Shown piece after piece: positions 6,601-25,523 of a stretch of 64,000 bases of DNA. A model generated the notes under the pieces. That model searched no databases, was not told the origin of the DNA, and was given only the letters and a program-made list of their open reading frames with translations. The stretch lies in contig CAINNJ010000063.1 in assembly GCA_903851195.1 (NCBI GenBank), positions 1-64,000 on the forward strand, read 5' to 3'. How positions within the stretch are numbered: the stretch's first letter is position 1; each line of letters starts with the position of its first letter. This DNA comes from an uncultured Acidobacteriia bacterium (GTDB lineage Bacteria > Acidobacteriota > Terriglobia > Bryobacterales > Bryobacteraceae). The position numbers and the translations under genes are program-made.

Positions 6601-9600
6601 CGCGAGCGTGTTCACCCAGACGACCACGGGCACCCAGGCGACGATAAGTCCGGCGCTGACAGGCGGCCACAACTACCAGTGGAGTGTCTACGCCAACAAC
6701 GCCAGCGGTCAGATTGCGTACTTCAGCGCGTGGTCCTTTACCACGTTAGCCGCGACAACCACTACGCTGACATCGGCATCAAACCCGGCTGCCTTCGGTC
6801 AGCCTCTGTACCTCACAGCAGCCGTATTGCCCGCGACGGCAACGGGCACGGTCACGTTCAAAGATGGCGGGGTAACGCTGGGCACAGCAACCCTGAGTTC
6901 GGGAACCGCGTCTTTCACGGCCTCCGCGGGCGCGCTTGTGGCCGGGTCTCACGTTCTGACGGCGGTCTACGGCGGAGACACGACGAATCCCCCCAGCACC
7001 TCCGCCGCTTTGTCCCAGACCGTCAGTGTGGCCAGTTCCAGCATCGTAGCCGCGTCTTCGGCGAACCCATCGCTTTCCGGTCAGAGCATTACGCTCACCG
7101 CCGTGGTGACGCCTTATGCCGCATCGGGCACCGTGACGTTCCTCGACGGCTCGAATGTGCTGGGAACGGCAACTCTGAATCTGGGGACCGCGAAACTGGC
7201 GGTGTCGGGTCTGTCCGCCGGCGCGCACAGCTTCGTGGCGAACTATTCGGGTGACGCGAACGACATCGGATCGGCGTCTACCTCGGTGGCCCAGATGGTT
7301 TTGGCTCCGACGATTGCGACGACAACCACTCTGGCCTCGTCATCAAATCCCTCGAAGTTCGGACAGAGCGTGACTCTGACCGCGACCGTCGTCCCTTCGG
7401 GCGCGACGGGAAACGTGACGTTCTATGACGGCACCACGGTGCTGGGCACCAGCGTGGTATCGGGCGGCAAGGCGACGCTGACCACAAAGCTGTTGCCGAC
7501 AGGCGCGCGCTCGCTGAAAGCCTGGTTCGCGTTTGGGTCCACGTACTCGTCGAGCGGCTCCGCCGTCCTGAGCCAGGTGGTCGGCGCCACTCCAATCGCA
7601 TCCAACGGCTTCCTGCCAGCGGTTACCTATCCGGCAGGAACCTTTCCGGAAGCTGTCGCCGTGGGAGATTTTAATGGCGACAACAAGCCCGATATGGTCG
7701 TGGCGAATTTCTCCACGAGCGATGTCAGTGTGTTTCTCGGGAACGGCGACGGGACGTTTGGCGCCGCGGTCAGTTACGCCGTGGGTAGCAATCCCTTTGG
7801 CGTGACAATCGGAGACTTCAACGGCGACGGCAAAGCGGATCTGGTGGTGGGTAACGGCAACTCCAATAACTTGAGTGTGCTGCTGGGGAATGGCGACGGT
7901 ACTTTCCAGGCGGCGGTCAACTACAGTGGGGCATACGACTGGGTCGTTACAGGAGATTTTAACGGAGACGGGATCACCGATCTGGCGTCTCTGGGCGCCG
8001 GGGGCGCAAGCGTCATGCTCGGCAAAGGCGACGGAACCTTCTTCCCCCAGGCGATCTATCCGACCGGGAGTGGTTCTTTTGGAATCAGCGCGGGCGACTT
8101 CAACGGGGATGGACGAGTCGATCTCGCCGTTTCGAACAACGGCGACAACGATGTGACGATCCTGCTGGGCAATGGCGACGGCACATTCCGGACGGCGGGG
8201 CGTTTTGCCACCGGAGGGAGACCGCGCGATGTGACGGTGGGCGACTTCAACGGCGACGGCAAGGCGGATCTCGGGATCGCCAATAACCTGGACAACACGG
8301 TCAGCGTGCTGACGGGCAATGGCGACGGAACGTTCCAGACGGCCGCGAATTATCCTCTGGCGACCGCGTTTGGCTGGCACGTCGTGGCCGGAGATGTGAA
8401 TAGCGACGGCAAAACAGATCTTGTCGCGGGCAGCAGCGTGCTCCTGGGTAACGGAGACGGAACGTTTCAGTCCGTCGTGAACTACTCGACCCTGGGCTAT
8501 CAGGCCAGCGCGCTGAGCGATTTAAACGGCGACGGCGTGCCCGACATTGCGGTAGCCGGTTCCGGCGCCACCGTTTTACTCGGAAAGCCGTCCGTCTCGC
8601 CCTATACCATCACCGCTCTGACGCCGAACTCGGCCCCGGCCGGCGGCGGCGATGTCGCGTTGTCGATCGCGGGCTCCAATCTTGCGAGCGCAACCAGAGT
8701 GGCCTGGACCAGGCCAGGCGGCACGACCGTCCTGCTCGCGGCAAGTTTCGCGTCCGCGGCCCAGATAACAGCCTCTCTGCCCGCGTACCTGATGACCACG
8801 GCGGGCCCCGTTCAGATCGCGGTGAGCGATTCGACGGGCACGGTGATTTCCAACCAGCTGCCCTTCACCATTACGTCGCCTTATTCCATCACGTCACTGA
8901 CGCCGAATACGGCAGCGGCCGGCAGCGGTCCTGTCTCGTTGTCGATCGCGGGCTCCAATTTGTCGAGCGCATCCAAAGTGGCCTGGACCAGTCCCGGCGG
9001 CACGACGACGCTGCTTTCACCCGGCACGATTGCCGCGGCACAGATGTTGGCCACACTGCCCGCGGCGTTGTTGACGACGGCGGGTACCGCTCAGGTTGCG
9101 GTGAGCGACGCCACGGGCGCCGTATTTTCCAACCAGCTGCCCTTTACCATTGCGGGGCCGTCGATCACGTCGCTGACGCCGAATACCGTTTCGGCGGGCA
9201 GCGGTCCCGTTGCGTTGTCGATCGCGGGTTTCAATCTCACGGGCGCAACCAAAGTGGCCTGGACGCGGTCCGGCGGCGCCACGGTTCTGCTTTCGGCAAG
9301 TTTCACGTCGGCGGCACAGATAACAGCATCCCTGCCCGCATACCTGATGACCACGGCGGGCGCCGTTCAGATCGCGGTGAGCGATGCCGCGGGCGGCGTG
9401 GTTTCCAACCAGCTGCCGTTTACCATCACGGCGGCGCTTCCGGCACTCACCATCACCACCGGGAGTCTGAATCCGGCGACGCCGGGGAGCTTCTACTCGC
9501 AGGCCCTCGGCGCCAGCGGCGGCAACGGATCCTACACGTGGTCCGCGTCGGGCCTCCCTTCGTGGCTGAGTCTGACTTCGGCCGGCGTCCTGTCCGGCAC

Positions 9601-12600
9601 GCCGACGACTGAGGTCGGCCCCGTATTCGTGGTCACCGTGACCAGCGGCAGTCTGGTCACCTCCAAAACGTTCACACTTTCGGCCGCGACACAAACGGGC
9701 ACGCACAACTACCGTATCGATACGATCGCGGGACAGCTGCGTCCGAGCGGAGTGCCGGGCACCAGCACCTTCCTGCAGGCTCCCCAGGGACTCGCATTCG
9801 ACGGCTCAGGCAGCCTGTACATCGTGGAAGTGGATGGCGCCATCGTTCGTAAAATCGATGCGGCAAATACATCGGTTTCCACCGTGGCGGGCACCGGGTT
9901 CCTGCACCGCCACACGGGATCGGGCGGACCCGCGCTTTCCGCGTCCTTTAACGCCGTCCGTTACGTAGCTGTCGACAGTTCCGGAAATCTCTTTCTTACG
10001 GAGTGGGGAAGTTGCGTTGTCGACCGGGTCGACGCGGTGACGCAGGTGATCACCGTGTATGCGGGAACGGCCGGCACTTGCGGATTTGCGGGCGACGGCG
10101 GACTCGCCACCAGCGCTCAGTTCTCGTCCAACGTCCGCGGCATCGCGGTGGATTCAGCCGGCGTGCTGTACATCGCCGACAGCGGGAACTCGCGCATCCG
10201 TACGGTGGATCCGGTTACCGGGATCGTGGCGACCTTCGCCGGCAACGGAGATTCCTACAGCGGCGATAACGGGCAGGCCGCGGCGGCCGGGCTGGGTAGT
10301 CCCGTGGGAATCGCGCTCGACGCCTCGGGCAATCTGTTTGTGGGCGCCTCCAGCCGTATCCGGCGGATCGACAGGACGTCCGGCATTATCACCACCTACG
10401 CCGGGACGGGATCTTCGACGTACAACGGAGAAGGGGTTGCGGCCACCAGCGCCAATATCGGCACTCCCCGGGGCCTCGGTTTCGATAACTCCGGCAACCT
10501 CTATTTTGCCGACTCGGCCAACCTTCGCATCCGTCGCGTCGACGCCGCGACCCGACTGGTCACCACCATCGGGGGCAACGGCACCGCCGGACTGAGTGGC
10601 GACGGCGGACCCGGGCCATCGGCACAGATGACGAATTGCGAAGGGCTGGCCGTGGATGCTTCGGGCAACGTGTACTTCTCGGATTTCTCCGGCGGACGAG
10701 TCAGGAAGCTGACGAACAACGGCGGTGGTGTCTGGACCATCGGCCCCTTCGCGGGCTCGAACGGCCCGGAAAACGTGGCTCCTCTCGCTGCATTAACCCC
10801 GTATCCCCTCGGAGTCGCGACCGACGGGAATTCCAACATTCTTATCAGCGGCGGGACCGACGGCCGCATTCGCAAGGTCACCTCCGCTCTCACCAGCCTG
10901 CAAACGATCGCAGGCGCCGGATACTACGGCGGGGATAGCGGCGATGGCGGCCCGGCGACCGGCGCGGTGCTGAATTTCCCTGGTCAGATTGCCCGGGACG
11001 CCGCGGGGAACATCTACATCGCCGAGAGCCTCACGGTCAGAAAGATCGACGTCCTCGGAAATATTTCGACCGTGGCGGGCTCCTACACGTCCACAACCAG
11101 CGCCACCGATGGCGCGGTCGCGACATCCGTTCAGTTGATCATCGGGGGAATCGCCGTAAATTCCTCCGGCGCCGTGTTTTTCTCGGACACGCTAAACCAC
11201 AAAGTCTGGGGAATCGCGGCCGGAAAGCTCTATACGGTCGCGGGCACCGGAACGCCAGGGACCAGCCCCAACGGCACCATGGCAACCGCGGCCGCGCTCA
11301 ACACGCCCTTGGGCATCAGGTTTGATGGCGCGGGCAATCTGCTGATTGCCGATTATGGCAACGCTCTGGTCCGAATGATCCAGAGCGGCGGCCAGATACT
11401 CACCGTGGCCGGAACCGGCGTTCTCGGCTACTCCGGAGACGGCCTGCCCGCAACCATGGCACAGATTCGGGCCTCCGACATCGCGGTCGCTCCGAACGGA
11501 GATTTGTTCCTTGCCGCAGGCTCCGAGATCCGTCTGGTAACGCATGCAACCGGCCTGATCGAAACGGTCGCCGGCACGGGAATCAGCGGGTTCGGCGGAG
11601 ATGGAGGCCCGGCACGCTCCGCGCAGATCGCATCCGGCGCGATCAATCTGGACGCCGCGGGGCGTCTGCTGATCGCGGACACCGATAACAACGTCATTCG
11701 CCGCCTGTCCCCGACATCCTCATCGGTGGCGATCACGACCGCGTCGTTGCCCGACGGCACCGTGAACAACGCTTATTCCGCAACCCTGGCGGCGACCGGC
11801 GGGTCGGGCGGCTATGCAAACTGGACCGTCGTATCGGGCGCCCTTCCGCCCGGCCTGACTCTGGACCCGGCAACCGGGATCATCGGCGGTATTCCCTCCG
11901 CCGGATCGAGCAGTCCTTATACTTTCTCCGTCGCGGTGCGGGACTCTTCGAATACTTTTTCTCTGCCGGCCAACCTGTCGCTCCGCATCAATTCCTTCGC
12001 CATTACGTCGTTGAACCCGACTGCTGTTCCGGTCGGCAGCGCGGGCACCCGGGTCACTGTCACGGGATCCGGTTTGTCAACGGCGGGGGCGGTTGTGTTC
12101 ACCAGCCCGGGAGGCGTCGTCACCGTGCTTCCTCCCTCGCTGATCGCCGCCGCGCAGGTTGCGGCCACCATTCCGGCGTCGCTGCTGACGTCCGCCGGCA
12201 CGGCTCAGGTGGCATTGTCGGATGGTTCGGGCGTGCTTTCCAATCGGTTGCCCCTGCAGATCACGCCGTTCACCATCGCTTCAATCAGCCCGGCCACGAT
12301 ACCGGCGGGCAGCGCGAGCACTTCTGTCAGCATCGCGGGAACCGGTCTTGGGACCGCGGCGAAAGTGGCGTTCACCAGCCCCGGCGGCGCGGTCACTCTG
12401 ATTACTCCCTCGCTGATCGCCGCCGCGCAGGTCGCCGCGACCATCCCGGCGTCGCTGCTGACCACCAGCGGCACGGCTCAGGTGGCACTGGCGGACGGTT
12501 CCGGCGCGCTTTCGAATCAGTTGCCGCTCACAATCTCGTCGTCGGCGGTGACGCTGTCCCTTGGCGACGGATCGGGCCGTCCAGGACAGACCGTGGAGAT

Positions 12601-13126
12601 TCCGCTGCAGATGACAAGCACGGGAACTCCCGCGGCCACCGGTTTCCAGGCGGATCTCAGTTTCGACTCGACAAAGCTGACGTACCTCTCCGCGCGGGCC
12701 GGCGACCAGACCACAAGCGCCGGCAAGAGCCTCTCAACCAATACTCTCGCGGGCGGCGACATCCGGCTCCTGGTGGCGGGCCTGAATCAGACCGCGATCG
12801 CCAACGGGATCGTGGCGTATGCCAAATTCACGGTCAACTCGTCGTTCACGTCCGGCAGCACCGTGGTGACGCCAAAGAACTGCAGTTCGACCAACGCGGA
12901 CGGCGGAGCGCTGCCGACCGCCTGCACGGCCGGGACGATTCGCACGGCCTCCTGCGACATCAACGGAGACGGCACGGTAAACGTGTCCGACGTGCAGCTG
13001 ATCATTAACGAAGCTCTCGGCCTCATACCGGCGGCCGACGACCTGAACGGAGACGGCACGGTGAACGTGGCGGATGTGCAGAAGGTGATCAACGCCGCGC
13101 TCGGGCTGGGATGCATTCTTCCATGA
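689..13126 (+). CDS. Giant secreted mosaic protein (4145 aa) ending in cohesin-like and dockerin modules
   Basis: A secreted surface or extracellular mosaic. Visible order, approximate residues: signal peptide 1-25; DUF7948-like domain 30-243; SBBP repeats 244-620; BNR/sialidase-type repeats (STDGG.(S/T)W) 625-905; another SBBP repeat 920-995; two BACON-like domains 996-1170; putative Ig (LPPGLTLNPTTGVISG) 1171-1260; four ~120-aa tandem repeats 1271-1749; Ig 1750-1840; carboxypeptidase-regulatory-like 1841-1930; FN3-like 1931-2021; three Big_3-type Ig 2022-2300; about seven FG-GAP repeats (GDFNGDGK.DL) 2308-2635; three IPT/TIG 2640-2914; Ig 2918-3000; NHL repeats (VAGTG..G..GDGGPA) 3008-3676; Ig and two TIG 3678-3949; cohesin-like 3951-4086; type I dockerin 4088-4145 with two DxNGDGTVNVxDVQ calcium loops. 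The start has GGAGAAG upstream. No enzyme active site is recognised. Binding, adhesion or scaffold roles are inferred from the modules; propeller types (SBBP, NHL, FG-GAP) dominate. Confidence 0.9.
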   Translation: MTKKQGPSSSLILVGFILPASLFGATSAPDPRVQEYLHVPLAFERQGQGPGERYVARGQGYTVGIDGTKAIIGVVSEQGEGKDVRRHAVSLEFAGAKRVAASPGPELPGKVNRILGKDPSKWEIGRSTYGKVVYSGIYPGIDVAYYGNQQQLEFDLVVKPGADPRAIRLKLRGAGKLSVDSSGALDLGEAAGGLRVALPRIYQDVNGTKKSVAGHFAIVGRDEVAFRVDRWDRRRALVIDPTIVYSAIFGGGLFSSGGYGIRVDGSGNIVIAGYTYAADFPTLNAAQNGFGGNNANDAFVSKINPAGTAFIYSTYLGGSNYDDARGLALDSSGSAWVAGYTQSPDFPLLNASQTAFGGIADAFVAKLSPAGALQFSTFLGGSSSDYASGIAVDSSDNAYVGGYSNGGVFPTTSGVVSPSSSGFTDVFITKFSPSGAVLYSTLLGGSSTDVAEAIAVDPAGNAYVTGYSYSSSFTGAPAGGAQTTNRGSGDVFVAKLNANGTALLYFTFLGGSGNDQGKAIAVDSSTGSAYIAGQTASAGLATAGAAQTTIGGASDGFIAKLNASGTAFNYVTYLGGSRNDYLTALAIDGSGNAYVSGYTESVNLPTASALQPALPGNGVSLFNSSSSGAVWSPFDANIPGAVTDISINPGSGSEVVLTDAGIYRSVNGGASWSQQSGVSFSSLSTSFLSRSPVAPATIYAASCCSSIYKSTDDGITWNFVGNALGQAKGLLADPLSASTLYAYTYTSPYVFKSTDGGSTWNSATTGLPGSPVNSMVATTDGAIYAGTNGAGIYKSVNQGGSWTAVNTGLSSASYVNYSQSLAASGTTLYFAGSTIYKSTDGGASWSATSAYVGTYSVAASAQNPSVLYAYTYNNFVQKSTDGGATWNAAGTGLPTTSYYYNSKLVVDPGNSAHVSVVAPVNTAAFAAKLNSAGSALTWSTYLGGSSTSYAYAMANDGTGNTLITGYTSGSAFPRTSSALPAGTYGAFLTKISDSTAACSTLSISPGNQTISPYGQTLTYSVVAPSGCNWTASLNQSWATITSGASGAGSSIVTVQVNYNSNSATQTAILTVGSQSVTITQPSSSCVFNPDQTTYAVPANGGTIPVTLTATSGCPWSITNNYSSAVSVAPASSGSGNAVLSLTVTPNRSPSARNFYLPVGTAQIQLVQPSNILTVTTTSVPGGAIGAYYATTLSASGGAPPYSNWTVATGSLPPGLTLNPTTGVISGIPSTRTGSPYAFSVTAKDSTNSVTSASSLSIAIGPFATSPGQSEALASPRMSGQLLFPFVTDFSGFDTELTISNTSLDTLGSAALSGTCTLSFYGTGAPSPGVNVALPGGALAAGSTRVVQLSSVAPAFQGYVIANCTFPLARGTARSVYNAGQPNSLILPSDAQVITLPRTVPSTTSFLLPFVTNQLGFDTGISIANTSSDPFGSSGATPTSGSCTLNFYGVGAPSPGTGVALPYGPIASGTSQAFTLSSVAAGFQGYIIGQCNFGAVAAYAYGIYGAGQPNGYAFADVPEVLALPRSASPQPLLFPAVTNQNGTETGIAIANTSSDPFGSVTASGACTLSFYGTNAPSSFTTPTIPAGTVYTATLSAMGATGFKGYVTAACPFGPARGFAFVLPPVTSNTYSVTPEVVSTPRNSAASSLLFSNVTAVNGYDTKIDISNTSLDTFGTVASAGSCKISYYGTVNGGSAPSPQTSVSIAAGSQLSFSLWQGNTSQGIAGAPGFRGYIIADCAFPQARGTAEITGAVVVGTSALPAGSVGTAYSQTLKAVNGFSPYSNWTVASGALPGGLTLNAATGVISGTPATTAGSPFSFGVSVQDAAGNVSGVRSLSIAIGSTSITGSVKWNGSPVPGATVQLKAAGDYSTQPVLASATAGSDGSFVIANAPAGSFTLYAVSPSSDYWSWSATSITVVAGQTNNAGTLTLSKILQLSSPANNATGVSLTPTLQWVAFSGATSYQVGVFDNSTGASVFTQTTTGTQATISPALTGGHNYQWSVYANNASGQIAYFSAWSFTTLAATTTTLTSASNPAAFGQPLYLTAAVLPATATGTVTFKDGGVTLGTATLSSGTASFTASAGALVAGSHVLTAVYGGDTTNPPSTSAALSQTVSVASSSIVAASSANPSLSGQSITLTAVVTPYAASGTVTFLDGSNVLGTATLNLGTAKLAVSGLSAGAHSFVANYSGDANDIGSASTSVAQMVLAPTIATTTTLASSSNPSKFGQSVTLTATVVPSGATGNVTFYDGTTVLGTSVVSGGKATLTTKLLPTGARSLKAWFAFGSTYSSSGSAVLSQVVGATPIASNGFLPAVTYPAGTFPEAVAVGDFNGDNKPDMVVANFSTSDVSVFLGNGDGTFGAAVSYAVGSNPFGVTIGDFNGDGKADLVVGNGNSNNLSVLLGNGDGTFQAAVNYSGAYDWVVTGDFNGDGITDLASLGAGGASVMLGKGDGTFFPQAIYPTGSGSFGISAGDFNGDGRVDLAVSNNGDNDVTILLGNGDGTFRTAGRFATGGRPRDVTVGDFNGDGKADLGIANNLDNTVSVLTGNGDGTFQTAANYPLATAFGWHVVAGDVNSDGKTDLVAGSSVLLGNGDGTFQSVVNYSTLGYQASALSDLNGDGVPDIAVAGSGATVLLGKPSVSPYTITALTPNSAPAGGGDVALSIAGSNLASATRVAWTRPGGTTVLLAASFASAAQITASLPAYLMTTAGPVQIAVSDSTGTVISNQLPFTITSPYSITSLTPNTAAAGSGPVSLSIAGSNLSSASKVAWTSPGGTTTLLSPGTIAAAQMLATLPAALLTTAGTAQVAVSDATGAVFSNQLPFTIAGPSITSLTPNTVSAGSGPVALSIAGFNLTGATKVAWTRSGGATVLLSASFTSAAQITASLPAYLMTTAGAVQIAVSDAAGGVVSNQLPFTITAALPALTITTGSLNPATPGSFYSQALGASGGNGSYTWSASGLPSWLSLTSAGVLSGTPTTEVGPVFVVTVTSGSLVTSKTFTLSAATQTGTHNYRIDTIAGQLRPSGVPGTSTFLQAPQGLAFDGSGSLYIVEVDGAIVRKIDAANTSVSTVAGTGFLHRHTGSGGPALSASFNAVRYVAVDSSGNLFLTEWGSCVVDRVDAVTQVITVYAGTAGTCGFAGDGGLATSAQFSSNVRGIAVDSAGVLYIADSGNSRIRTVDPVTGIVATFAGNGDSYSGDNGQAAAAGLGSPVGIALDASGNLFVGASSRIRRIDRTSGIITTYAGTGSSTYNGEGVAATSANIGTPRGLGFDNSGNLYFADSANLRIRRVDAATRLVTTIGGNGTAGLSGDGGPGPSAQMTNCEGLAVDASGNVYFSDFSGGRVRKLTNNGGGVWTIGPFAGSNGPENVAPLAALTPYPLGVATDGNSNILISGGTDGRIRKVTSALTSLQTIAGAGYYGGDSGDGGPATGAVLNFPGQIARDAAGNIYIAESLTVRKIDVLGNISTVAGSYTSTTSATDGAVATSVQLIIGGIAVNSSGAVFFSDTLNHKVWGIAAGKLYTVAGTGTPGTSPNGTMATAAALNTPLGIRFDGAGNLLIADYGNALVRMIQSGGQILTVAGTGVLGYSGDGLPATMAQIRASDIAVAPNGDLFLAAGSEIRLVTHATGLIETVAGTGISGFGGDGGPARSAQIASGAINLDAAGRLLIADTDNNVIRRLSPTSSSVAITTASLPDGTVNNAYSATLAATGGSGGYANWTVVSGALPPGLTLDPATGIIGGIPSAGSSSPYTFSVAVRDSSNTFSLPANLSLRINSFAITSLNPTAVPVGSAGTRVTVTGSGLSTAGAVVFTSPGGVVTVLPPSLIAAAQVAATIPASLLTSAGTAQVALSDGSGVLSNRLPLQITPFTIASISPATIPAGSASTSVSIAGTGLGTAAKVAFTSPGGAVTLITPSLIAAAQVAATIPASLLTTSGTAQVALADGSGALSNQLPLTISSSAVTLSLGDGSGRPGQTVEIPLQMTSTGTPAATGFQADLSFDSTKLTYLSARAGDQTTSAGKSLSTNTLAGGDIRLLVAGLNQTAIANGIVAYAKFTVNSSFTSGSTVVTPKNCSSTNADGGALPTACTAGTIRTASCDINGDGTVNVSDVQLIINEALGLIPAADDLNGDGTVNVADVQKVINAALGLGCILP
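4500..5935 (+). repeat. Four tandem ~120-aa repeats within the giant protein
   Basis: Four diverged copies share LLFPFVT...G.(D/E)T.I.IANTS.D.FG, then SG.CTL.(F/Y)YG..APS, then GF.GY(I/V)...C.F..ARG. Each has two cysteines, one in the SGxCTL motif and one near the end, which could form a disulfide outside the cell. I do not recognise a named family; they are separated by short linkers containing LPR. Confidence 0.7.
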
Positions 13127-13324
13127 CGGGCGCGGCGGCGGTGAACGGAGTCTTTTGGCAAAAATGCGGACCGGAAATGTGAATTGCGGTTTATTTGTCA
13201 TGCGCGGACGGTGTGCAGCGCTCTGCAGGATGAATCCTCCCGGTTTTTCGCGGATTCTTTTTCCGGAGACGGTTTTGCGCCGGGCATTTCGGGCGATTGC
13301 GGGATTTGAAAGGAAGTATTGAAG

Positions 13325-13798
13325 ATGCGACATCGATTCGGCCTGTTTCTTCTGCTGCTGTCCGGTATTGCCCGGGGCGCTGAATTAAGCATTGATTCCG
13401 GCATCGCCGGGCCCCATGAGCCCGTCGCCCTGAACGTGCGGCTCTCGGAGGCGACGGAGGCCCTCACCGGACTCCAGTTCGACCTGGAATATGACGCGTC
13501 GGCGCTGGACGTCACGGTGGAAATCGGACCGTCGGCGGAGAGCGCGGTGAAGATTCTGCAGACCGCCCGCACCGCCAAATCCGGCCAGAGAGTAATGATC
13601 GTCGGCTTCAATCAGAACCATGTGTCCGATGGCGTAGTCGCGGTTCTGCACGTTTCGGCCAGAGAAAACAGCGGGACGGCCGCCGATTATCCCATTCGCC
13701 TGACGGCGACGGCGGGCACGAACGCACGGGCGGAATCGATCCGGGTGACCGGGCGCGAAGGAGTTTTAAGAGTGTCGGCGAGGAATTCAAAGAAATGA
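13325..13798 (+). CDS. Small secreted cohesin-like protein
   Basis: A 157-residue protein with a signal peptide (RFGLFLLLLSGIARGAE) followed by essentially one cohesin-type beta-sandwich: ELSIDSG at the mature N-terminus, the hallmark GLQFDLEYDASALDV, and the VGFNQNHVSDGVVAVLHV strand pair. AGGAAG lies 8 bases before ATG 13325; a TTG two codons upstream (13319) is the alternative start. Its stop overlaps the ATG of the next gene (ATGA, 13795-13798), so the two are translationally coupled. It follows the dockerin-bearing giant gene by 198 bases. Cohesins bind dockerins in known systems; that this one binds the neighbouring dockerin is inference. No anchor or sortase motif is visible. Confidence 0.8.
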   Translation: MRHRFGLFLLLLSGIARGAELSIDSGIAGPHEPVALNVRLSEATEALTGLQFDLEYDASALDVTVEIGPSAESAVKILQTARTAKSGQRVMIVGFNQNHVSDGVVAVLHVSARENSGTAADYPIRLTATAGTNARAESIRVTGREGVLRVSARNSKK

Positions 13799-16700
13799 GA
13801 TTGCTGAAGAGCGTACCTCTGTTTTCATGCCTGGCGTTTTTGAGCCTGGCAGTGGCGGGAGCCAATGCCGCCAGCGTCGCGCTGGGGACCGCGACGGGCG
13901 CCGCCGGATCGGTAGTCAATGTCAGTGTGCCGCTCACGTCCGCCGGCGCGCAGGTCGCCGGGGTGCAGTTCGATATTACTTACGACAACACGGCGCTGAG
14001 CTTATCCGTCGCCGCCGGAAGCGCGGCGAATGCCGCCGCCAAATTCGTTTCGACCAGCAACCTGTCGTCCGGCACGGTTAAACGCGTGATTGTGTCGGGA
14101 TTCAACACAAATATCATTGCGGACGGAAGCGTGGCCGAAATCTCGGTGACGATCGGCGCGGGGGCGCCGGCGGGAACCTATGCTCTGACGGTATCCAATC
14201 TGAGCGCCACGGACCCCAACGGTGCGTCGCTGCCGCTGACCGGGACGAGCGGCTCGGTCGTCGTGCCGGCGACGCCGCAATCGATTACGTTCGGAACCCT
14301 CAGCCCGGCGACACTTGGCGCGGCACCCTTTACTCTCTCGGCGACCGCGACGTCGGGCCTCGCGGTAAGCTTCGCATCCACCACGGCGTCGGTCTGCACC
14401 GTATCCGGCTCCACCGTCACCCTCGTGGGAGCGGGCACCTGCTCGATCACCGCGAGCCAGGCGGGCAACGCGAGTTACAGCGCGGCGACTCCCGTGGTGC
14501 AGACGTTCACCGTCGGCAAGGGAAGCCAGACGATCAGTTTCAGCGCTCCGGCGGGTCGTGCCTTCAATGCGCCGGCATTCACGCTCACCGCAACCGCGAG
14601 TTCCGGTCTGGCGGTGGCATTCGCTTCCGCCACGACGTCGGTTTGTACGGTGTCCGGTTCCACGGTGACTCTGGTCGCGCCCGGGAACTGCTCGATCACG
14701 GCCAGCCAGGCGGGCGACTCCAACTACAATGCCGCCTCCCCGGTCTCCCAAAGTTTCACCGTCGGCATGGGCTCGCAAAGCATTACGTTCTCGCCGCTTT
14801 CGAGTGCGGCCTTCGGATCGGCGCCCTTCGCTCTTACCGCCACCGCGTCTTCGGGTCTGCCCGTGAGTTTTGCGTCGACTACCATGGCGGTCTGCACCGT
14901 TTCCGCTTCCACGGTGACGATCGTGGCCCCTGGCGCCTGCTCGATAACGGCCACCCAGGCCGGCGACACGAACTACACCGCTGCTGTTCCGGTGACACAG
15001 GGTTTCACGGTCACGCCGGGTTCGCAGACCATCACCTTCGCGGCTCCCTCGGGCGTGACTTTCGGCGCGGCGCCTTTCGCGCTCACCGCCACGGCCTCTT
15101 CCGGACTGACTGTGAGTTTCGCTTCCACGACAACGCCGGTCTGCACGGTGTCCGGTTCAATGGTGACGATCGTGACGGCCGGCACCTGCTCGATCACGGC
15201 CAGCCAGGCCGGGAATACCAATTACGCGGCCGCCGCCACTGTCAGCCAGTCGTTTACGGTAGCCAAAGCGTCGCAAACAATCAGTTTCGGGGCACTCACC
15301 GGGCAGACTTACGGCGGATCTCCATTTGCGGTGAGCGCCACGGCATCTTCGGGTCTGACGGTTTCCTTCGCGTCGACGACGCCCGGAAGCTGCACGGTTT
15401 CCGGCGGGCAGGTCACACTGGTGAGCGCGGGAACGTGCACGATCGCCGCCAGCCAGACGGGCGATTCGAACTACAGCGCCGCCACCACCGTGACGCAGAG
15501 CTTCACGATCAGTCCCGGTTCGCAGACCATCACGTTCGGGGCTTTGACCAGCGTTACCTATGGGGTTTCGCCGATCGGAATCGCCGCGACCGCTTCTTCC
15601 GGTCTTCCGGTCGCCTTCTCCTCGACCACACCCGCCGTCTGTACGGTTTCCGGCGCCAGCGTGACGATCACCGGAGCGGGAACCTGCTCCATCACCGCGG
15701 CACAGGCCGGAAACGGCAACTTCAGCGCGGCGGCCAGCGTGACACAGACCTTTTCGGTGAGTCCGGCTTCGCAGACGATCACCTTCGCGCAGCCTCCCGG
15801 TCAGGCACTCTCGGCGCCGGCCTATATGCTGAGCGCCACGGCGTCTTCGGGCCTCACGGTAAGCTTCGCCTCCACGACGACGACCGTCTGTACCGTCTCC
15901 GGAACCACCGCGACGATGCTGGCCGTCGGCACCTGCTCGATTACGGCGTCGCAGGCGGGCAATTCGAATTACAACGCCGCCGTGCCGGTGACGCAAAGCT
16001 TCGCGGTCAGTCCCGCGTCGCAGACCATCACATTCGGGACACTGAGCGGTTCGGTCTACGGCGCGGCTCCGATCACGCTGACCGCGACGGCGTCCTCCAG
16101 CCTGCCGGTGAGCTTCGCGTCCACGACTTCCGCGGTCTGCACGGTATCGGGTTCCACTGTCACCATCGTGGGCGCGGGCACCTGCTCCATCACGGCCAGC
16201 CAGGCGGGAAACGCGGGTTTTGGCGCCGCGCCGAACGTGACGCAGAGTTTTAGCGTTGCCAAAGCCGCCCAGACAGTCAGTTTCGGACCGCTGGGCAACC
16301 GGGCCCTCAGTGCATCGCCGGTCACGATAAGCGCCACCTCCACCTCAACGCTGGCGGTCAGTTTCGCTTCCACAACGGCTTCCGTCTGCACCGTTTCGGG
16401 AAGCGTCGTCACCCTGCTCACCCTGGGCACGTGCACAATCTCGGCGAGTCAGGCGGGCGACCCGAATTACAACGCCGCGGCCTCCGTCAGCCAGAGTTTT
16501 ACGGTGACGGTGGGATCGCAAACGATTACCTTCGGACCTCTGAGTAATGCCACCTTCGGCGATACGCCGATCGCGCTGAGCGCTACAGCCTCCTCCGGAC
16601 TGTCCGTATCTTTCGCCTCGACAACGCTGACGGTCTGCACGGTGTCGGGTTCGGTGGTCACGCTTGTGGGCGCGGGCACCTGTTCCATCACCGCCAGCCA

Positions 16701-19098
16701 GGCCGGAAACGCGAGTTATTCCGCGGCGCCGGGTGTAACCCAGAACCTGACGGTCGCCAAAGCGTCGCAGACGCTCAGTTTCGGTGCGATCGGCGACCGG
16801 CCGTTCAATCCGGCTTCGTTCGCGTTGACGGCTTCGGCGAGTTCCGGGCTGGGAGTTTCCTTCGCGTCGGCCACCACCGCTGTCTGCACCGTATCCGGTT
16901 CATCGGTCACCATGCTGGCGACCGGAACCTGCTCTGTCGTGGCGAGCCAGACGGGCAACGCGAACTACAACGCCGCCACGGCGGTGACGCAGAGCTTCAC
17001 GGTGACGCCGGGTTCGCAGACCATCACCTTCGTGCCGCAGAGCAATGTGGCGGCGGGAACGCCGCCGTTCCAGATCGGCGCGACATCTTCCGCCGGGCTG
17101 CCGGTCACGTTCGCATCCATGACGCTGCCGGTCTGCACCGTGTCGGGGTCGCTGGTGACCATCGTGGGCGCGGGCACCTGCACACTCGCGGCCTCCCAGG
17201 CGGGGAACGGAGCTTACGGCGCGGCGACGACGGTTACCCAGAGCTTCACGGTTCTGGCCGCGCCGGCCTGCATGTACTCCCTTACCTCATCGGCTGCGAG
17301 TATTCCGCTGGGTGGCGGCAACGGATCCTTCAATCTGCAGACTACGCCCAACTGCTCCTGGACGGCGGTCTCGAACAACTCGTGGCTGACCGTCACCACT
17401 GGCACCGCGGGCACGGATTCGGGCACGATCGCTTATTCCGCGGCGCCGAACGCCACGACCAGCCAGCGCTCGGGCACCATCACCGCCGGCGGCCAGACGT
17501 TCACCGTGACGCAGTTCGCCGCCTCGTGTTCCTTCGCTCTCAGCGCGGCGGGAGTGGATCTGACGGCCGCCGGGGGCTCGGTAACCATCTCCATCTCCGG
17601 TTCGACCACCGGATGCGCCTGGTCGTCCAGCGCATCCGCCGCGGGTGTCACTATATCGCCGGCCAGCGGAACGGCTCCGGGACAGGTCACCGTCGCGGTG
17701 GGATCCAACACGGGAGTCCCGAACCGGGTCCTCACGCCGACGATCGGCGGCCAGACATTCACGATCAACCAGGCGGGCATCAACTGTGCCGTGACCCTCG
17801 GCGCGACAAGCGCTTCCGTCGCGGCGTCCGGCGGCTCCGGGTCGGTGGGCGTTACGGTTCCGGCCGGCTGCAGCTACAGCACGGTTTCCAGTGCGACCTG
17901 GATCTCGGTCACTTCCGCCGGTTCGGGATCCTCCAGCGGAACGCTCCTTTATACGGTGAACGCCAACTCGACGAGCGTGACGCGCACGGGGACACTGACG
18001 ATCGGCGGCACGCCTCTCGCCATCACGCAGCAGGGATTGGCCTGCACCGTCAGCCTGGATACCTCGTCGCTGGGAAGTCCTTTTGGCAGCGCCGGGGGCA
18101 CGGGCTCCGTCGCAATCTCCGTCAATTCCGCGGGCTGTTCGTGGCTGGCCAGGAGCGGGGCGCCCTGGGCCGCGGTCTCGCCGTCGGAGGGAACGGGCGC
18201 GGGCACGCTGTCTGTCACGGTCGCCGCGAATTCCAGCGGAAGCCCGCGCTCCGGCGTGCTGAACGTCGGTGGCCAGGCCATCAACATTTCGCAGGCGGGT
18301 CCCGCCTGCAGCTATAGCCTTCGGTCGGGCGACGGGTCGACGCCGGAGTCGGGCGGGACCGGCACGGTGGGCGTAATCGCGGCCAGCGGCTGTTCGTGGA
18401 CATCGGCGACCAACAATCCGACATGGCTGACGATTGTGTCGTCGGATTCGAGCGGCACCGGTGAAGTGAAGTTCTCGGTTGCGCCGAATACCACTGCCAC
18501 AACCCGCACGGGAACCTTAACAGTCGCCGGACAGACTTATACGGTGACCGAAGCGGGAGCGACCTGCGCGTACAGCCTGAATCTGGGAAGCGCGGCGATC
18601 GGGTCCGGCGCGACCGGCGGCTCGGTCACGTTCTCGACACCGACGACGGGATGCGCGGGGCCGGTGGTGACCAGCCGTTCGCACTGGCTGACGTTCACGC
18701 AGTCATTCAGCGGGAGCGCGGGCTCGGTGAATTACACGGCTGAGGCGAATTCCTCGGGCAGCACCCGCACCGGCACTATCCAGATCGGCAAGCAGACATT
18801 CACGGTGAGCCAGGCCGGCGCAAGCTGCTCGTACACGCTGAATGCAAACGGCGCCGTATTCGGGAGCGCGGGCGGAACCGGCAGTATTTTGGCGACCGCG
18901 AGTTCCGCGGGCTGTACTCCCGCGGTAACCAGCAGTCCCCCGGGCGTCGTGCCACTGGGTTCTCTGACCGGGCCCGTGTCGAATGTCTATACACAAACCT
19001 ACACGGTTCCGGCGTTCACGTCGGCGACAAATGCCGTGCGGGTGGTCACGATCATGCTTGGCGGACAGGTATTCCAGATTAAACAGAGGTCATTTTGA
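13795..19098 (+). CDS. Secreted repeat protein: cohesin-like domain, 12 Ig-like repeats, 7 BACON-like domains (1767 aa)
   Basis: Signal peptide (residues 1-25, ending ANAAS), then a cohesin-like module at about 27-157 (GVQFDITYDNTALSL, VSGFNTNIIADGSVAE) most similar to the small protein just upstream. Residues 163-1158 are twelve tandem 83-aa repeats of the SQTITFG.L...TATASSGLPVSFAS type. Residues ~1159-1767 are seven BACON-like domains, each opening with C(S/T).(S/T)L and closing with GGQ.(F/I)T(V/I)(S/T)QAG. The start overlaps the previous stop (ATGA). No catalytic residues are seen. The layout, a binding module on a long rigid beta-rod, suggests a surface stalk; attachment to the cell is not explained by any visible anchor. 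Confidence 0.88.
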   Translation: MRLLKSVPLFSCLAFLSLAVAGANAASVALGTATGAAGSVVNVSVPLTSAGAQVAGVQFDITYDNTALSLSVAAGSAANAAAKFVSTSNLSSGTVKRVIVSGFNTNIIADGSVAEISVTIGAGAPAGTYALTVSNLSATDPNGASLPLTGTSGSVVVPATPQSITFGTLSPATLGAAPFTLSATATSGLAVSFASTTASVCTVSGSTVTLVGAGTCSITASQAGNASYSAATPVVQTFTVGKGSQTISFSAPAGRAFNAPAFTLTATASSGLAVAFASATTSVCTVSGSTVTLVAPGNCSITASQAGDSNYNAASPVSQSFTVGMGSQSITFSPLSSAAFGSAPFALTATASSGLPVSFASTTMAVCTVSASTVTIVAPGACSITATQAGDTNYTAAVPVTQGFTVTPGSQTITFAAPSGVTFGAAPFALTATASSGLTVSFASTTTPVCTVSGSMVTIVTAGTCSITASQAGNTNYAAAATVSQSFTVAKASQTISFGALTGQTYGGSPFAVSATASSGLTVSFASTTPGSCTVSGGQVTLVSAGTCTIAASQTGDSNYSAATTVTQSFTISPGSQTITFGALTSVTYGVSPIGIAATASSGLPVAFSSTTPAVCTVSGASVTITGAGTCSITAAQAGNGNFSAAASVTQTFSVSPASQTITFAQPPGQALSAPAYMLSATASSGLTVSFASTTTTVCTVSGTTATMLAVGTCSITASQAGNSNYNAAVPVTQSFAVSPASQTITFGTLSGSVYGAAPITLTATASSSLPVSFASTTSAVCTVSGSTVTIVGAGTCSITASQAGNAGFGAAPNVTQSFSVAKAAQTVSFGPLGNRALSASPVTISATSTSTLAVSFASTTASVCTVSGSVVTLLTLGTCTISASQAGDPNYNAAASVSQSFTVTVGSQTITFGPLSNATFGDTPIALSATASSGLSVSFASTTLTVCTVSGSVVTLVGAGTCSITASQAGNASYSAAPGVTQNLTVAKASQTLSFGAIGDRPFNPASFALTASASSGLGVSFASATTAVCTVSGSSVTMLATGTCSVVASQTGNANYNAATAVTQSFTVTPGSQTITFVPQSNVAAGTPPFQIGATSSAGLPVTFASMTLPVCTVSGSLVTIVGAGTCTLAASQAGNGAYGAATTVTQSFTVLAAPACMYSLTSSAASIPLGGGNGSFNLQTTPNCSWTAVSNNSWLTVTTGTAGTDSGTIAYSAAPNATTSQRSGTITAGGQTFTVTQFAASCSFALSAAGVDLTAAGGSVTISISGSTTGCAWSSSASAAGVTISPASGTAPGQVTVAVGSNTGVPNRVLTPTIGGQTFTINQAGINCAVTLGATSASVAASGGSGSVGVTVPAGCSYSTVSSATWISVTSAGSGSSSGTLLYTVNANSTSVTRTGTLTIGGTPLAITQQGLACTVSLDTSSLGSPFGSAGGTGSVAISVNSAGCSWLARSGAPWAAVSPSEGTGAGTLSVTVAANSSGSPRSGVLNVGGQAINISQAGPACSYSLRSGDGSTPESGGTGTVGVIAASGCSWTSATNNPTWLTIVSSDSSGTGEVKFSVAPNTTATTRTGTLTVAGQTYTVTEAGATCAYSLNLGSAAIGSGATGGSVTFSTPTTGCAGPVVTSRSHWLTFTQSFSGSAGSVNYTAEANSSGSTRTGTIQIGKQTFTVSQAGASCSYTLNANGAVFGSAGGTGSILATASSAGCTPAVTSSPPGVVPLGSLTGPVSNVYTQTYTVPAFTSATNAVRVVTIMLGGQVFQIKQRSF
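14281..17268 (+). repeat. Twelve tandem 249-bp (83-aa) repeats
   Basis: Twelve head-to-tail copies, each 83 codons without length variation. The consensus begins SQTITFG and ends VTQSFTV. Each copy carries one cysteine in (V/S)CTVSG and a second 18-19 residues later in GTCSI(T/A)AS or a variant, so each module could hold one internal disulfide. The copies have diverged in the first third (the turn after ITFG) and are most conserved around the cysteines. Confidence 0.9.
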
Positions 19099-19112: not shown

Positions 19113-21542
19113 ATGTCTAAAGGTGGCGTTTGGCTGATTGCGCTGACTTCGCTTCTTGTCTGTCCCGCGGGGCGGGCAGCCACGCAGGGTCCGGACGGTG
19201 GCGGCTACACGGCAACCGACGGTTCCGTTTACAGCTTCGTCAACATTGCCGGCGGGGGAGGAGGCGCGAGCGTACTGGCCGGAACGGACGACGGCACGGC
19301 AGTGATTTCGCTGCCTTTTCCCTTCACGTTCTATGGCACCGCGTATCGGCAGATCTGCGTTAGCACGAACGGGGCCGCGTACTTTGTGACGGATCCCTCG
19401 GTCTGCCCGGCGGTCAACGATTTTGCGAATGTCGATCTCACGTCGGCGAGTCCTTCGAGCGACCTGCCCGCGATTCTGCCGATGTGGAGCGATCTCACGT
19501 TCGACGTTCCGGGCGCGGGCGCCGTTTTTTATCAGACAATCGGCGCGGCCGGCAGCAGGCGCTTCATCCTGCAGTGGAACAATGCCTTCCCGCAGGGTTC
19601 TCCCAATCCGGTCACCTTTCAGGCGATTCTGACGGAAGGCACGAACGCCATCGCCTTCGAGTATCAAACGGCGTCTCTCGGCGCCGGCAATCCTGCCGGC
19701 GGAGGGGCGCAGGCGACGGTTGCAATCCGGTCCGCGGGCGGATCTGGAAATGGCCGGCAACTGCAGTGGAGCTTTGACTCGGCGGCGCTTTCCGACAGCT
19801 CCGCGCTGCTGTTCACGCCGGGCGCCGGACCCTTGCCCGTGACGCTCACGGCTCCGGCCAACGGCGCTACGGGGGCGAGTGTGCCGTCCACCCTGAGCTG
19901 GACCGCTTCGGCCGGCGCGACATCCTACGACATTTATCTGGGCACCATGTCGCCACCGCCTCTGGCGGGAAATACGGTCTCGACCAGTTTTACTCCGCCG
20001 TCCCTGCTGAGCGGAACCACCTATAACTGGCAGATTGTGGCGAAGAACGCGGCCGGATCGAGCCCCTCGGCAACCTGGTCCTTCACCACGGCCACGGCCG
20101 CCGGCGGAGGTGGAGGCGGTGGCGGTGGCGGTGGTTTTGGCGGTGGAGGGACAGGCGGCGCGCTCCCCGGCACACTGACAGTGTCGCCAGCCATCCTGAA
20201 CTTCGGCGCCCCCGCCAACAGCGGTCCCCTGAGCCAGACGCTTACTCTGACTTTCGTGTCCGCCAACAACTACTCGGACGTTCCCTTTCAGGCCGCGGCC
20301 TCCGATGGTCTGACGGGCTGGCTTCACGTTTCGCCAGGCGGCGGGAGCATTCCGTTCCTGTCCGCCAACGGGAGCTCTTACACCTACCAGACGACGATTA
20401 CCGTCACGGTGACCCCGGCAGTGGTGGATACCGGAACGTACACCGGGCAAATCCAGCTGAATTATGGCGTGAACGCCACGGTCCAACTGACCAAAAGCGA
20501 CAAAAACGCGGTATTTACCGTGAATCCTTCGTCGCTGAGCTTTACTTACCGGCAGGGAGATGCCAGGGCGACGCTCTCCCAGAACGTGAACGTGAGCAGC
20601 GAACCGTCGGGCGCGGCGTTTACTCCGCAAGTGCTGCTGCCGGGCGGCGGGAACTGGCTCTCCGTGCCCTCCGGGGCCATCACGACACCGGGCACCGTGG
20701 CTGTCACCGCGAACGCGGCGAACCTGTCTCCCGGCGTGTATTCGGGCAAGGTACGGCTCGTATCCGGCGGCGTCGCTCTGGACGAGCCCGTAACCCTGAC
20801 CGTCATCAGTAAAGACGCGCCGATTGTCAGCAAAGGCGGTATCGTGCCCGTGTACAGCAGTTCCGCGACAATCTCACCGGGTTCCTGGATTTCAATCTAC
20901 GGGACCAATCTGGCCGGCGCCACGGCGGTGTGGAACGGAGATTTCCCGACTTCACTGGGCGGGGTGAGCGTAACGGTGAACGGCAAGCCGGCTTACCTGT
21001 GGTTCGTCAGTCCGACCCAGATTAATCTGCAGGCCCCCGATGACACCGCCACCGGGACGGTCAACGTCGTGGTAACCAATGAGAACGGGAGTGTTACGTC
21101 TACGACGACGCTTGCGCCAACGAGTCCTTCGTTCAGTGTTCTGGGCGATGGCAAGCACCTGGCCGCCGTAATTCTGACGCCGGACGGATCGGGCAGCTAT
21201 GGCGGTGGGCAGTATGACCTCTCGGGCCCCGCCGGCGCGTTCGCTTTCAATACCCGACCGGTAAAGCCCGGCGAACAGTTGGAGTTGTTCGGGGTGGGAT
21301 TCGGGCCTACGAATCCGATGGTGCCGGCCGGTCAGAATCCGGATCAGCCGGCTCCGGTGGTGAATCCGGTATCGATCACGATCGGGGGCGTTCCGGCGGA
21401 GGTTTCATTCGCCGGGATTACGTCGGCGGGTCTGTACCAGTTCAATCTGACTGTTCCCAACGTAGCGAGCGGGGATCAGACCGTGACGGCTACGGTAGCC
21501 GGGGTGGTCACACAGACCGGGCTCGTTATCGCGGTGCAATAG
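19113..21542 (+). CDS. Secreted protein with FN3, BACON-like and TIGR03437 C-terminal domains
   Basis: An 809-residue secreted protein. ATG 19113 is preferred because GGAG lies about 7 bases upstream and a signal peptide follows at once (GGVWLIALTSLLVCPAGRAAT); a TTG at 19095 overlapping the previous stop is the alternative. Residues ~24-235 form a nidogen-like or choice-of-anchor-like domain (FPFTFYG..YRQICVSTNGAAYF, LPMWSDLTFD). An FN3-type domain follows (~240-328), then a poly-Gly linker (~330-348), then two BACON-like beta-sandwiches (~350-565). Residues ~570-end match the TIGR03437 domain (SPGSWISIYGTNLA, ..W.VSPTQIN.QAP, FGVGFGPT.P). That domain is characteristic of Solibacter-lineage exported proteins. 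The gene probably shares a transcript with the two preceding genes. Confidence 0.85.
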   Translation: MSKGGVWLIALTSLLVCPAGRAATQGPDGGGYTATDGSVYSFVNIAGGGGGASVLAGTDDGTAVISLPFPFTFYGTAYRQICVSTNGAAYFVTDPSVCPAVNDFANVDLTSASPSSDLPAILPMWSDLTFDVPGAGAVFYQTIGAAGSRRFILQWNNAFPQGSPNPVTFQAILTEGTNAIAFEYQTASLGAGNPAGGGAQATVAIRSAGGSGNGRQLQWSFDSAALSDSSALLFTPGAGPLPVTLTAPANGATGASVPSTLSWTASAGATSYDIYLGTMSPPPLAGNTVSTSFTPPSLLSGTTYNWQIVAKNAAGSSPSATWSFTTATAAGGGGGGGGGGGFGGGGTGGALPGTLTVSPAILNFGAPANSGPLSQTLTLTFVSANNYSDVPFQAAASDGLTGWLHVSPGGGSIPFLSANGSSYTYQTTITVTVTPAVVDTGTYTGQIQLNYGVNATVQLTKSDKNAVFTVNPSSLSFTYRQGDARATLSQNVNVSSEPSGAAFTPQVLLPGGGNWLSVPSGAITTPGTVAVTANAANLSPGVYSGKVRLVSGGVALDEPVTLTVISKDAPIVSKGGIVPVYSSSATISPGSWISIYGTNLAGATAVWNGDFPTSLGGVSVTVNGKPAYLWFVSPTQINLQAPDDTATGTVNVVVTNENGSVTSTTTLAPTSPSFSVLGDGKHLAAVILTPDGSGSYGGGQYDLSGPAGAFAFNTRPVKPGEQLELFGVGFGPTNPMVPAGQNPDQPAPVVNPVSITIGGVPAEVSFAGITSAGLYQFNLTVPNVASGDQTVTATVAGVVTQTGLVIAVQ

Positions 21543-25118: not shown

Positions 25119-25523
25119 ATGAGTTCGCCCGAAGAAATCACCCCTTATCAATTAACGCCGGAAGGCATGCAGATTCTGGAGGGAGCCCAGAGCCTCCGGC
25201 GCCGCCTGGTTGCCGCCGCCCGCGCGGAAAAGGAAGGCACGGTCGCGCTCGATCCGGCGCGGGCGGCTCTCACGCAGATGGTGGGCGCGATGCGCCAGTC
25301 CGGCTTCGACATCCTCGACGTCGATCGGGTGCTCGATGAGTTCGAAGACATCAGCGATCGCGGCAGCCGCGCCTTCGAACTGCACTTCTTCGTCGGTCTC
25401 CCGCCGGAACGCATTGCGGCCGTGATGCGGGTTCCCGAGCGCATCGCGGAGCGCGATGTCGCCGTTGTGAAAGCCTGGCTGCTGGAGCGGCTGAAACTTC
25501 TTTCCGGCGCCGCGCGGCCATGA
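25119..25523 (+). CDS. Sigma region 4-like protein between sigma factor and kinase
   Basis: A 134-aa soluble protein starting 2 bases after the sigma stop (ATG 25119; an ATG at 25068 inside the sigma gene is less likely). Its C-terminal half, FELHFFVGLPPERIAAVMRVPERIAERDVAVVKAWLLERL, mirrors the region-4 helix-turn-helix of the sigma factor just upstream, VELRFFAGLSVEETAEVMHL...VKREWSSARAWLYREI. There is no region 2, so it cannot act as a sigma factor alone. It could compete for the -35 element or for beta-flap, or be a phosphorylation partner; this is inference. Its stop overlaps the kinase start (ATGA 25520-25523), which indicates translational coupling. Confidence 0.75.
   Translation: MSSPEEITPYQLTPEGMQILEGAQSLRRRLVAAARAEKEGTVALDPARAALTQMVGAMRQSGFDILDVDRVLDEFEDISDRGSRAFELHFFVGLPPERIAAVMRVPERIAERDVAVVKAWLLERLKLLSGAARP

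Follow-up and report, generated by a model that had tools for sequence, protein, structure and literature searches.

A probable non-cellulosomal cohesin-dockerin docking cassette on a giant beta-propeller protein of an uncultured member of the Bryobacteraceae

Why should a giant secreted beta-propeller protein end in a dockerin beside two genes that each encode a cohesin, and what might dock to what? The question is raised by a gene cluster of an uncultured Acidobacteriia bacterium of the Bryobacteraceae (assembly GCA_903851195.1, contig CAINNJ010000063.1), of which 64,000 nucleotides were analysed as one stretch, the window, whose start is the end of its contig (G000:C63:1). Three consecutive open reading frames (ORFs) on the forward strand are concerned: ORF1 (689..13126, 4145 amino acids), ORF2 (13325..13798, in a frame of 13319-13798) and ORF3 (13795..19098, 1767 amino acids). 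The best explanation is probably that ORF1-ORF3 form a cognate, non-cellulosomal cohesin-dockerin docking cassette, which would attach the giant beta-propeller protein to cohesin-bearing secreted proteins; a fourth gene, ORF4, is probably part of the same transcription unit. Acidobacteriota are common soil bacteria; little is understood of how their surface is assembled, and most of their giant secreted mosaics are without a known attachment. A small recurring plug-and-socket set offers a direct handle, namely three short modules from one cluster.

ORF1 is a mosaic in which hmmscan against Pfam recognizes DUF7948, beta-propeller repeats of the SBBP, FG-GAP and NHL kinds, He_PIG and Big_3_5; a signal-peptide-like N-terminus and BACON-like and IPT-like immunoglobulin (Ig) modules are discernible by eye. 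No enzyme domain was recognized over its curated cut-off among the listed families, propeller folds such as SGL aside, and the NCBIfam 'glycosylhydrolase' model falls far under its cut-off (72.9 of 175 bits). The C-terminus consists of a cohesin (12548..12940, + strand, amino acids 3954-4084; PF00963, expectation value E = 1.6e-13 in the whole protein and 7.3e-16 in a C-terminal fragment) with two cysteines of its own, followed after a linker of a few residues by a dockerin (12953..13123, + strand, amino acids 4090-4136; PF00404, E = 3e-6 in the whole protein and 2.1e-10 in the C-terminal fragment). The dockerin loops are DINGDGTVNVSDVQ and DLNGDGTVNVADVQ, and the two F-hand repeats with D-x-N/D-x-D calcium loops that characterize type I dockerins are present (DINGDGTVNVSD and DLNGDGTVNVAD), together with two helices in a predicted model and cysteines ahead of loop 1 and past helix 2. 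With one cohesin and one dockerin in a single protein, ORF1 has the composition of a monovalent adaptor scaffoldin.

The ORF1 dockerin belongs to class A, one of four recurring dockerin classes named by eye from 50 places outside its own genome, several rows of which fit none of the four. A profile of 17 class-A dockerins (A2), which itself includes the ORF1 dockerin, matches it at E = 3.6e-22, and class A also matches the solved dockerins 4fl4_A (1.4e-8) and 1ohz_B (9.5e-7). The cysteines ahead of loop 1 and past helix 2 are present in 17 of 17 aligned class-A dockerins, and a second pair is present in 12 and absent from 5; because this second pair is never represented by a single cysteine, the pattern looks like two disulfides, of which the outer one would be kept in the ORF1 dockerin.

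ORF2 encodes a signal peptide (by eye) and a single cohesin only (PF00963, E = 8.2e-6). Its likely start is the ATG at 13325, with AGGAAG upstream and 198 bases after the ORF1 stop, and its end overlaps the start of ORF3 by 4 bases (ATGA). In ORF3, a cohesin (13876..14265, + strand) directly follows the signal peptide (by eye) and is accompanied by Ig-like repeats, of which about 12 were counted by eye, and by BACON modules; PF00963 finds it at 1.1e-13 in a six-frame search and at 3.8e-14 in an N-terminal fragment, whereas the whole-protein hmmscan does not list it at E<=1. All three cohesins exceed the curated PF00963 cut-off of 24.1 bits, and the ORF1 dockerin exceeds its own. The ORF1 and ORF2 modules were modelled from shallow alignments (10 and 9 rows), and both have the cohesin beta-sandwich fold according to structure prediction and Foldseek; the ORF2 model (predicted local distance difference test, pLDDT, 86.8; predicted template modelling score, pTM, 0.81) matches the cohesin 6kgf_C at 5.4e-11 and also 4n2o_F at 3.2e-7. 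The profile E-values and the models exclude a chance motif. An earlier note, made from the sequence alone, had described a cohesin and a cysteine-flanked, two-loop dockerin at the end of the giant protein and two following genes, coupled by a 4-base overlap, with one cohesin each, of which one held almost nothing else, making three cohesins and one dockerin in the cluster. That description is confirmed, and the cohesin fold that it presumed was found in both modelled modules; the interpretation that it offered is partly supported by what follows.

If the modules are partners, they should be found together in relatives. Counts within the family were made with A2 and with a profile of five cohesins (A1), and counts in the rest of the phylum with A3 in place of A1; the profiles were seeded partly from dockerin neighbours. 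Among 121 family genomes, A1 is found in 36 and A2 in 34, with both in 27, the cohesin only in 9, the dockerin only in 7 and neither in 78 (Fisher p = 3.7e-13; 9.8e-13 with the own genome left out). Kinship was handled by counting genera only, which gives 21, 7, 6 and 42 in the same order (p = 5e-8). Outside the family, both modules occur in 4 of 294 genomes, the cohesin being present in 14 in all and the dockerin in 15 (p = 0.003; at a stricter E, 4, 3, 1 and 286, p = 6e-7), and in all four a cohesin and a dockerin are on one contig, about 5 kb apart or closer. The candidates scored per genome numbered up to 37 cohesins and 55 dockerins in the family and up to 15 and 22 in the phylum, and these counts may be low. 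Proximity is likewise far above expectation: A2 matches 58 dockerins, 49 of them in genomes with an A1 cohesin, and of these 49 such a cohesin lies within 5 kb of 14 (0.24 expected), within 10 kb of 16 (0.49) and within 20 kb of 19 (0.97). The 14 nearest comprise 4 tandems in the same frame, one of them ORF1, and 10 pairs in separate frames.

Such clustering could also arise if cohesins and dockerins were mere folding or calcium-binding blocks that do not pair, their proximity mirroring that of the genes for secreted giants. The proteins are indeed mosaics of common extracellular modules, a cohesin domain is also found on a secretin of the own genome, and the stretch examined around most PF00404 dockerins of class A holds no cohesin. 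However, the co-occurrence holds for class A and not for class B, another of the dockerin classes, which does not track A1 cohesins (2, 34, 8 and 77 in the order above; p = 0.72), and DUF7948, a domain of the same giant, does not track the class-A dockerin (p = 1.0) and lies within 20 kb of one in 0 of 34 cases among the matches listed, from 27 genomes that have both features; the DUF7948 of ORF1 itself, in the same frame as its dockerin, is not one of those 34 rows. These two controls weaken the case for clustering as a by-product of giant genes, and gene order is kept across families, so that building blocks without pairing are an unlikely explanation.

The order of dockerin-ended protein or proteins, lone cohesin and cohesin-headed protein is found in four genomes: the own genome, G121 (locus L165), G129 (L184) and G183 (L186), the last two from two further families of the same phylum. 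The nearest named relative is Bryobacteraceae bacterium GZL_FP_2_bin.159 (G121; L158-L160), whose tandem is 62-66% identical to that of ORF1; its locus L165 encodes a 972-amino-acid frame ending in cohesin and dockerin, a 190-amino-acid lone cohesin (40% identical to ORF2), a 2134-amino-acid cohesin-headed protein, a Soli_cterm protein and a cohesin-Soli_cterm protein. All five class-A dockerins of this genome (E<=1e-5) are in C-terminal cohesin-dockerin tandems, in frames of 972 to 6076 amino acids. G129 has a dockerin-ended frame of 1006 amino acids without a tandem cohesin, a lone cohesin and a cohesin-headed frame of 418; G183 has two cohesin-dockerin proteins, a lone cohesin with an apparent insertion and a cohesin-headed frame of 616. 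Elsewhere, one stretch in G402 and in G323 encodes cohesin-headed proteins together with a small dockerin protein in which an fn3-like part is discernible by eye, and G076 and G082 have small stand-alone cohesin-dockerin tandem proteins. The propeller content of the dockerin proteins that adjoin lone cohesins varies: propellers are present in ORF1 and G129 (PF21783, 1.3e-7), the signal is weak in one of the two G183 proteins (PF10282, 2.2e-5 for the whole protein with no single stretch passing), and the 972-amino-acid G121 protein has no beta-propeller match, three other G121 giants carrying NHL or FG-GAP repeats. Thus cohesin and dockerin genes co-occur in relatives, as the earlier note would have them do, and they also cluster there and keep their order across families.

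To which cohesins might the dockerin bind? Cohesins were aligned to 1g1k and 5nrm and sorted by score and length rules into a grouping of 100 rows, of which 5 are 'other', and one protein is represented among the 48 A3-type rows by a few truncated copies; three wrong-strand seeds (L032, L040 and L042), present in the first home-made cohesin profile used for the neighbourhood and gene-order searches, were dropped for this grouping. One exposed position of strand 3 is occupied by Q in 46 of the 48 distinct A3-type cohesins, in 9 of 11 with a PEP-CTERM-like tail (PEP-type) and in 0 of 19 that lie at the C-terminus of long frames; the neighbouring position further outward is D in 29 of 48, 9 of 11 and 0 of 19, respectively. 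In the 19 long-frame cohesins, which were taken as the secretin type and were Pfam-checked only for the secretin of the own genome, the Q position holds P (15) and the D position R or K (17). We take the strand-3 position, from clostridial complexes, to be on the dockerin-binding face and to match residue 39 of the Clostridium thermocellum cohesin, which has a role in binding. The pattern fits dockerin binding by the A3 and PEP types and not by the secretin type. Among tandem cohesins, all eight listed, from the window, G121 (five) and G183 (two), retain Q and an acidic residue (D or E) at these sites; the small stand-alone tandems of G076 (GLLFTVTW) and G082 (GLQWTLEL) do not keep both.

These residues also bear on whether the partner of the dockerin could be the C-terminal cohesin of the secretin, so that the giant would dock at a secretion pore. 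That secretin (L093:5328-7919 = C1:55327-57918, minus strand; PF00263, 1.1e-36; cohesin at G000 C1:55387-55704) does carry the only PF00963 match of the genome outside the cluster. The two families are distributed differently, with PF00963 cohesins in 105 of 121 family genomes, well over half of those listed being in frames of about 780-930 amino acids like this secretin, versus PF00404 dockerins in 37, and the exposed residues of the secretin type are different as well; docking at the secretin is rejected on both counts as highly improbable.

Class-B dockerins appear to have sockets of their own. At 8 of 11 loci (L044-L049, L051 and L053, not L050; the three copies in G104 are counted once, and one match is weak, E = 0.004), a class-B dockerin-ended gene adjoins a small cohesin gene, and by eye all eight of these cohesins end in a PEP-CTERM-like tail; half of the eight (L044, L046, L049 and L053) were also found by PF00963. 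Because class-B dockerins adjoin PEP-CTERM-like cohesins, at least two pairs of plug and socket seem to exist in the bacterial family, and the class-B pairs suggest sockets anchored by exosortase.

The own genome (7.7 Mb) offers little resembling a cellulosome. PF00404 finds one dockerin, that of ORF1, and PF00963 finds four cohesins in four frames, three of them in the cluster; A1 finds five cohesins in five frames. With narrower profiles, one more dockerin, partly degenerate, is found on contig C64, and two more cohesins on C64 and C4. Neither the PF00963 nor the A1 search of the whole genome reveals a multi-cohesin scaffoldin, and no dockerin-bearing glycoside hydrolase was found in it, the frame of the weaker C64 dockerin having no Pfam match at E<=1e-3. 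A canonical cellulosome is therefore rejected, with one cohesin per frame and a single PF00404 dockerin in the genome, and any assembly would be non-cellulosomal, as the earlier note had proposed. On C64 (L170:3145-4380 and L170:7682-10978), the class-A-like dockerin, whose loop 2 is degenerate, has a weaker cohesin of the same type some 6.7 kb away and is followed by an fn3-like part (by eye; without a Pfam match); similar small dockerin-fn3-like proteins are encoded at L145, L146 and L147.

The earlier note had also remarked on the absence of a glycoside hydrolase. This holds for the cluster and does not extend to the dockerin class, because class-A dockerins of relatives are also on likely carbohydrate-active enzymes: of 15 dockerin proteins scanned, 5 contain a domain linked to carbohydrates (GH44, GHL15, heparinase II/III-like, CBM96 and a PL4-type carbohydrate-binding module, the last below the Pfam cut-off) and 3 more a right-handed beta-helix, the rest having IPT, DUF5123, a weak M10 peptidase match or the dockerin alone. 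At L060:9968-11227, in a record that is partly N, a GH44-like protein with a class-A dockerin is encoded divergently from a cohesin-Soli_cterm gene, which would make a cellulosome-like pair in a relative.

Several observations weigh against a docking cassette. Most class-A plugs are not beside a socket, as the stretches around 17 class-A PF00404 dockerins hold a cohesin (always of the A1 type) in only 3; 35 of the 49 dockerins have no such cohesin within 5 kb, 9 of 36 cohesin genomes are without the dockerin, and 7 of 34 dockerin genomes are without the cohesin. At E<=1e-5, the cohesin subtype and the dockerin class are both missing from the two other sampled genomes of the genus, G041 and G097, and therefore the set is accessory. 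Of the five A1 seeds, three are from the window and one (L060) was noticed beside a dockerin. An acidic residue (D or E) adjoins the Q position in only 33 of 48 A3-type rows, the G076 tandem has neither residue, and no anchor was identified on ORF3 or ORF4.

If the cassette operates nonetheless, the ORF1-ORF3 proteins would be exported by Sec, and the ORF1 dockerin, with its two calcium loops and its ends probably tied by a disulfide, would bind the cohesin at the N-terminus of ORF3 (and of other cohesin-headed proteins) in a calcium-dependent manner, so that the giant beta-propeller protein would be held non-covalently on a long Ig/BACON stalk. ORF2 would be a free cohesin that could occupy this dockerin too, whether to cap it, to escort it or to compete for it. 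As a 'monovalent adaptor', ORF1 could also receive a further dockerin protein, even another copy of itself, because its cohesin keeps the conserved exposed Q-x-D residues.

The purpose of the tandem is where readings diverge. Head-to-tail chaining is possible, because its cohesin makes ORF1 a monovalent adaptor (in the sense of PMC11557425): the dockerin of one ORF1 would bind the cohesin of the next to form fibres, with ORF3 as base and ORF2 as terminator. Such chains, which are compatible with the docking cassette and differ in the purpose given to the tandem, are a tentative possibility. The tandem is found in 5 of 5 G121 dockerins, twice in G183 and in small stand-alone form in G076 and G082, the linker is of a few residues in the tandems seen (by eye), and all eight listed tandem cohesins keep the exposed residues; yet in G129, where the gene order is kept, the dockerin lacks a tandem cohesin, the small stand-alone tandems fail to keep both residues, and PMC11557425, in the parts available, reads monovalent adaptors as type-switching proteins that dock on anchoring scaffoldins. 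Alternatively, the dockerin might fold back on the cohesin of its own chain and serve as a lock or sorting signal at the C-terminus, a reading with which the C-terminal position of the tandem in the window, G121 and G183 would agree. Fold-back onto the usual binding face is unlikely because the linker is only a few residues long, free cohesin genes are kept next door, and the G129 dockerin has no cohesin in its chain; an intramolecular unit thus seems very unlikely. A wider picture, to be regarded as doubtful, would have a widely shared exported kit of Acidobacteriota, locked by calcium and disulfides, in which tandem-bearing propeller giants are chained head to tail on cohesin-headed stalks, the lone cohesin caps chains or escorts dockerins, and the same plug is fitted to enzymes, yielding a modular surface with a logic like that of cellulosomes and not for cellulose.

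ORF4 (19113..21542, + strand; frame from TTG 19095, ATG at 19113) comprises an N-terminal module of no recognized type, an fn3-like part under the Pfam cut-off and a C-terminal Soli_cterm domain (about 20862-21539; TIGR03437, 1.8e-52), which is overlapped by a TIG match. Relatives fuse Soli_cterm to a cohesin of the same subtype, with signal peptide, cohesin and Soli_cterm in succession at L060 and L097. By eye, the N-terminal module of ORF4 resembles the N-terminus of the 972-amino-acid cohesin-dockerin protein of L165, and because of this likeness one head may serve both a plug protein and a Soli_cterm protein. The ends of ORF2 and ORF3 are without the PEP-CTERM signature (PEP motif, hydrophobic stretch and basic end) by eye, and inspection of ORF2-ORF4 by eye showed no end of the SLH, LPxTG or PEP-CTERM-like kinds. 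Downstream of the cluster, the window encodes a Ser/Thr protein kinase with tetratricopeptide (TPR)-like repeats (25520-27895).

How does the set compare with known systems? Non-cellulosomal cohesins and dockerins were reportedly described by Peer et al. in 2009, and Archaeoglobus fulgidus (2xdh) is an archaeal example. They occur in archaea and other bacteria, for instance in ANME (anaerobic methanotrophic) archaea, and the three-gene order with a lone cohesin in between is undescribed in the available parts of that account (PMC9012536). Papers on cohesins and dockerins of Acidobacteria, Acidobacteriota or Solibacter, including PMC3922913, describe no such system in their titles or the opening of their abstracts; in the open-licence literature searched, nothing was found on the gene set, on the tandem on beta-propeller giants or on a conserved lone cohesin, nor anything joining PEP-CTERM with cohesin and dockerin, or Bryobacteraceae with dockerin. 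If the docking cassette is real, cohesin-dockerin logic would extend beyond cellulosomes to adhesin-like giants, and protein engineering would gain candidate orthogonal pairs.

Three systems come closest. The monovalent adaptor scaffoldins of Paenibacillus guangzhouensis, as far as the available parts of PMC11557425 describe them (the stem 'acidobacter' is absent from its text), number 28 per genome, and their added part is often a glycoside hydrolase, anchors having SLH. They resemble the present proteins in having one cohesin and one dockerin, possibly with an extra functional part, and in occurring many per genome (28, against 5 in G121), and in both sets anchoring cohesin proteins are fewer than adaptors; here, unlike there, beta-propeller/Ig giants take the place of glycoside hydrolases, and no SLH was seen on ORF2-ORF4. 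The autonomous cohesins of Ruminococcus flavefaciens (4n2o; 4wkz, ScaG; by entry titles) are like ORF2 in consisting of little beyond one cohesin, but are longer (about 190 residues) and come from a cellulosome producer, whereas ORF2 is in a surface-protein gene set. The class-B pairs of the same family likewise place a dockerin-ended gene beside a small cohesin gene, with another dockerin class and with a PEP-CTERM-like cohesin tail that ORF2 lacks. The kind of system is already known; what is new here is the recurring gene order and the co-occurrence of this cohesin subtype with this dockerin class.

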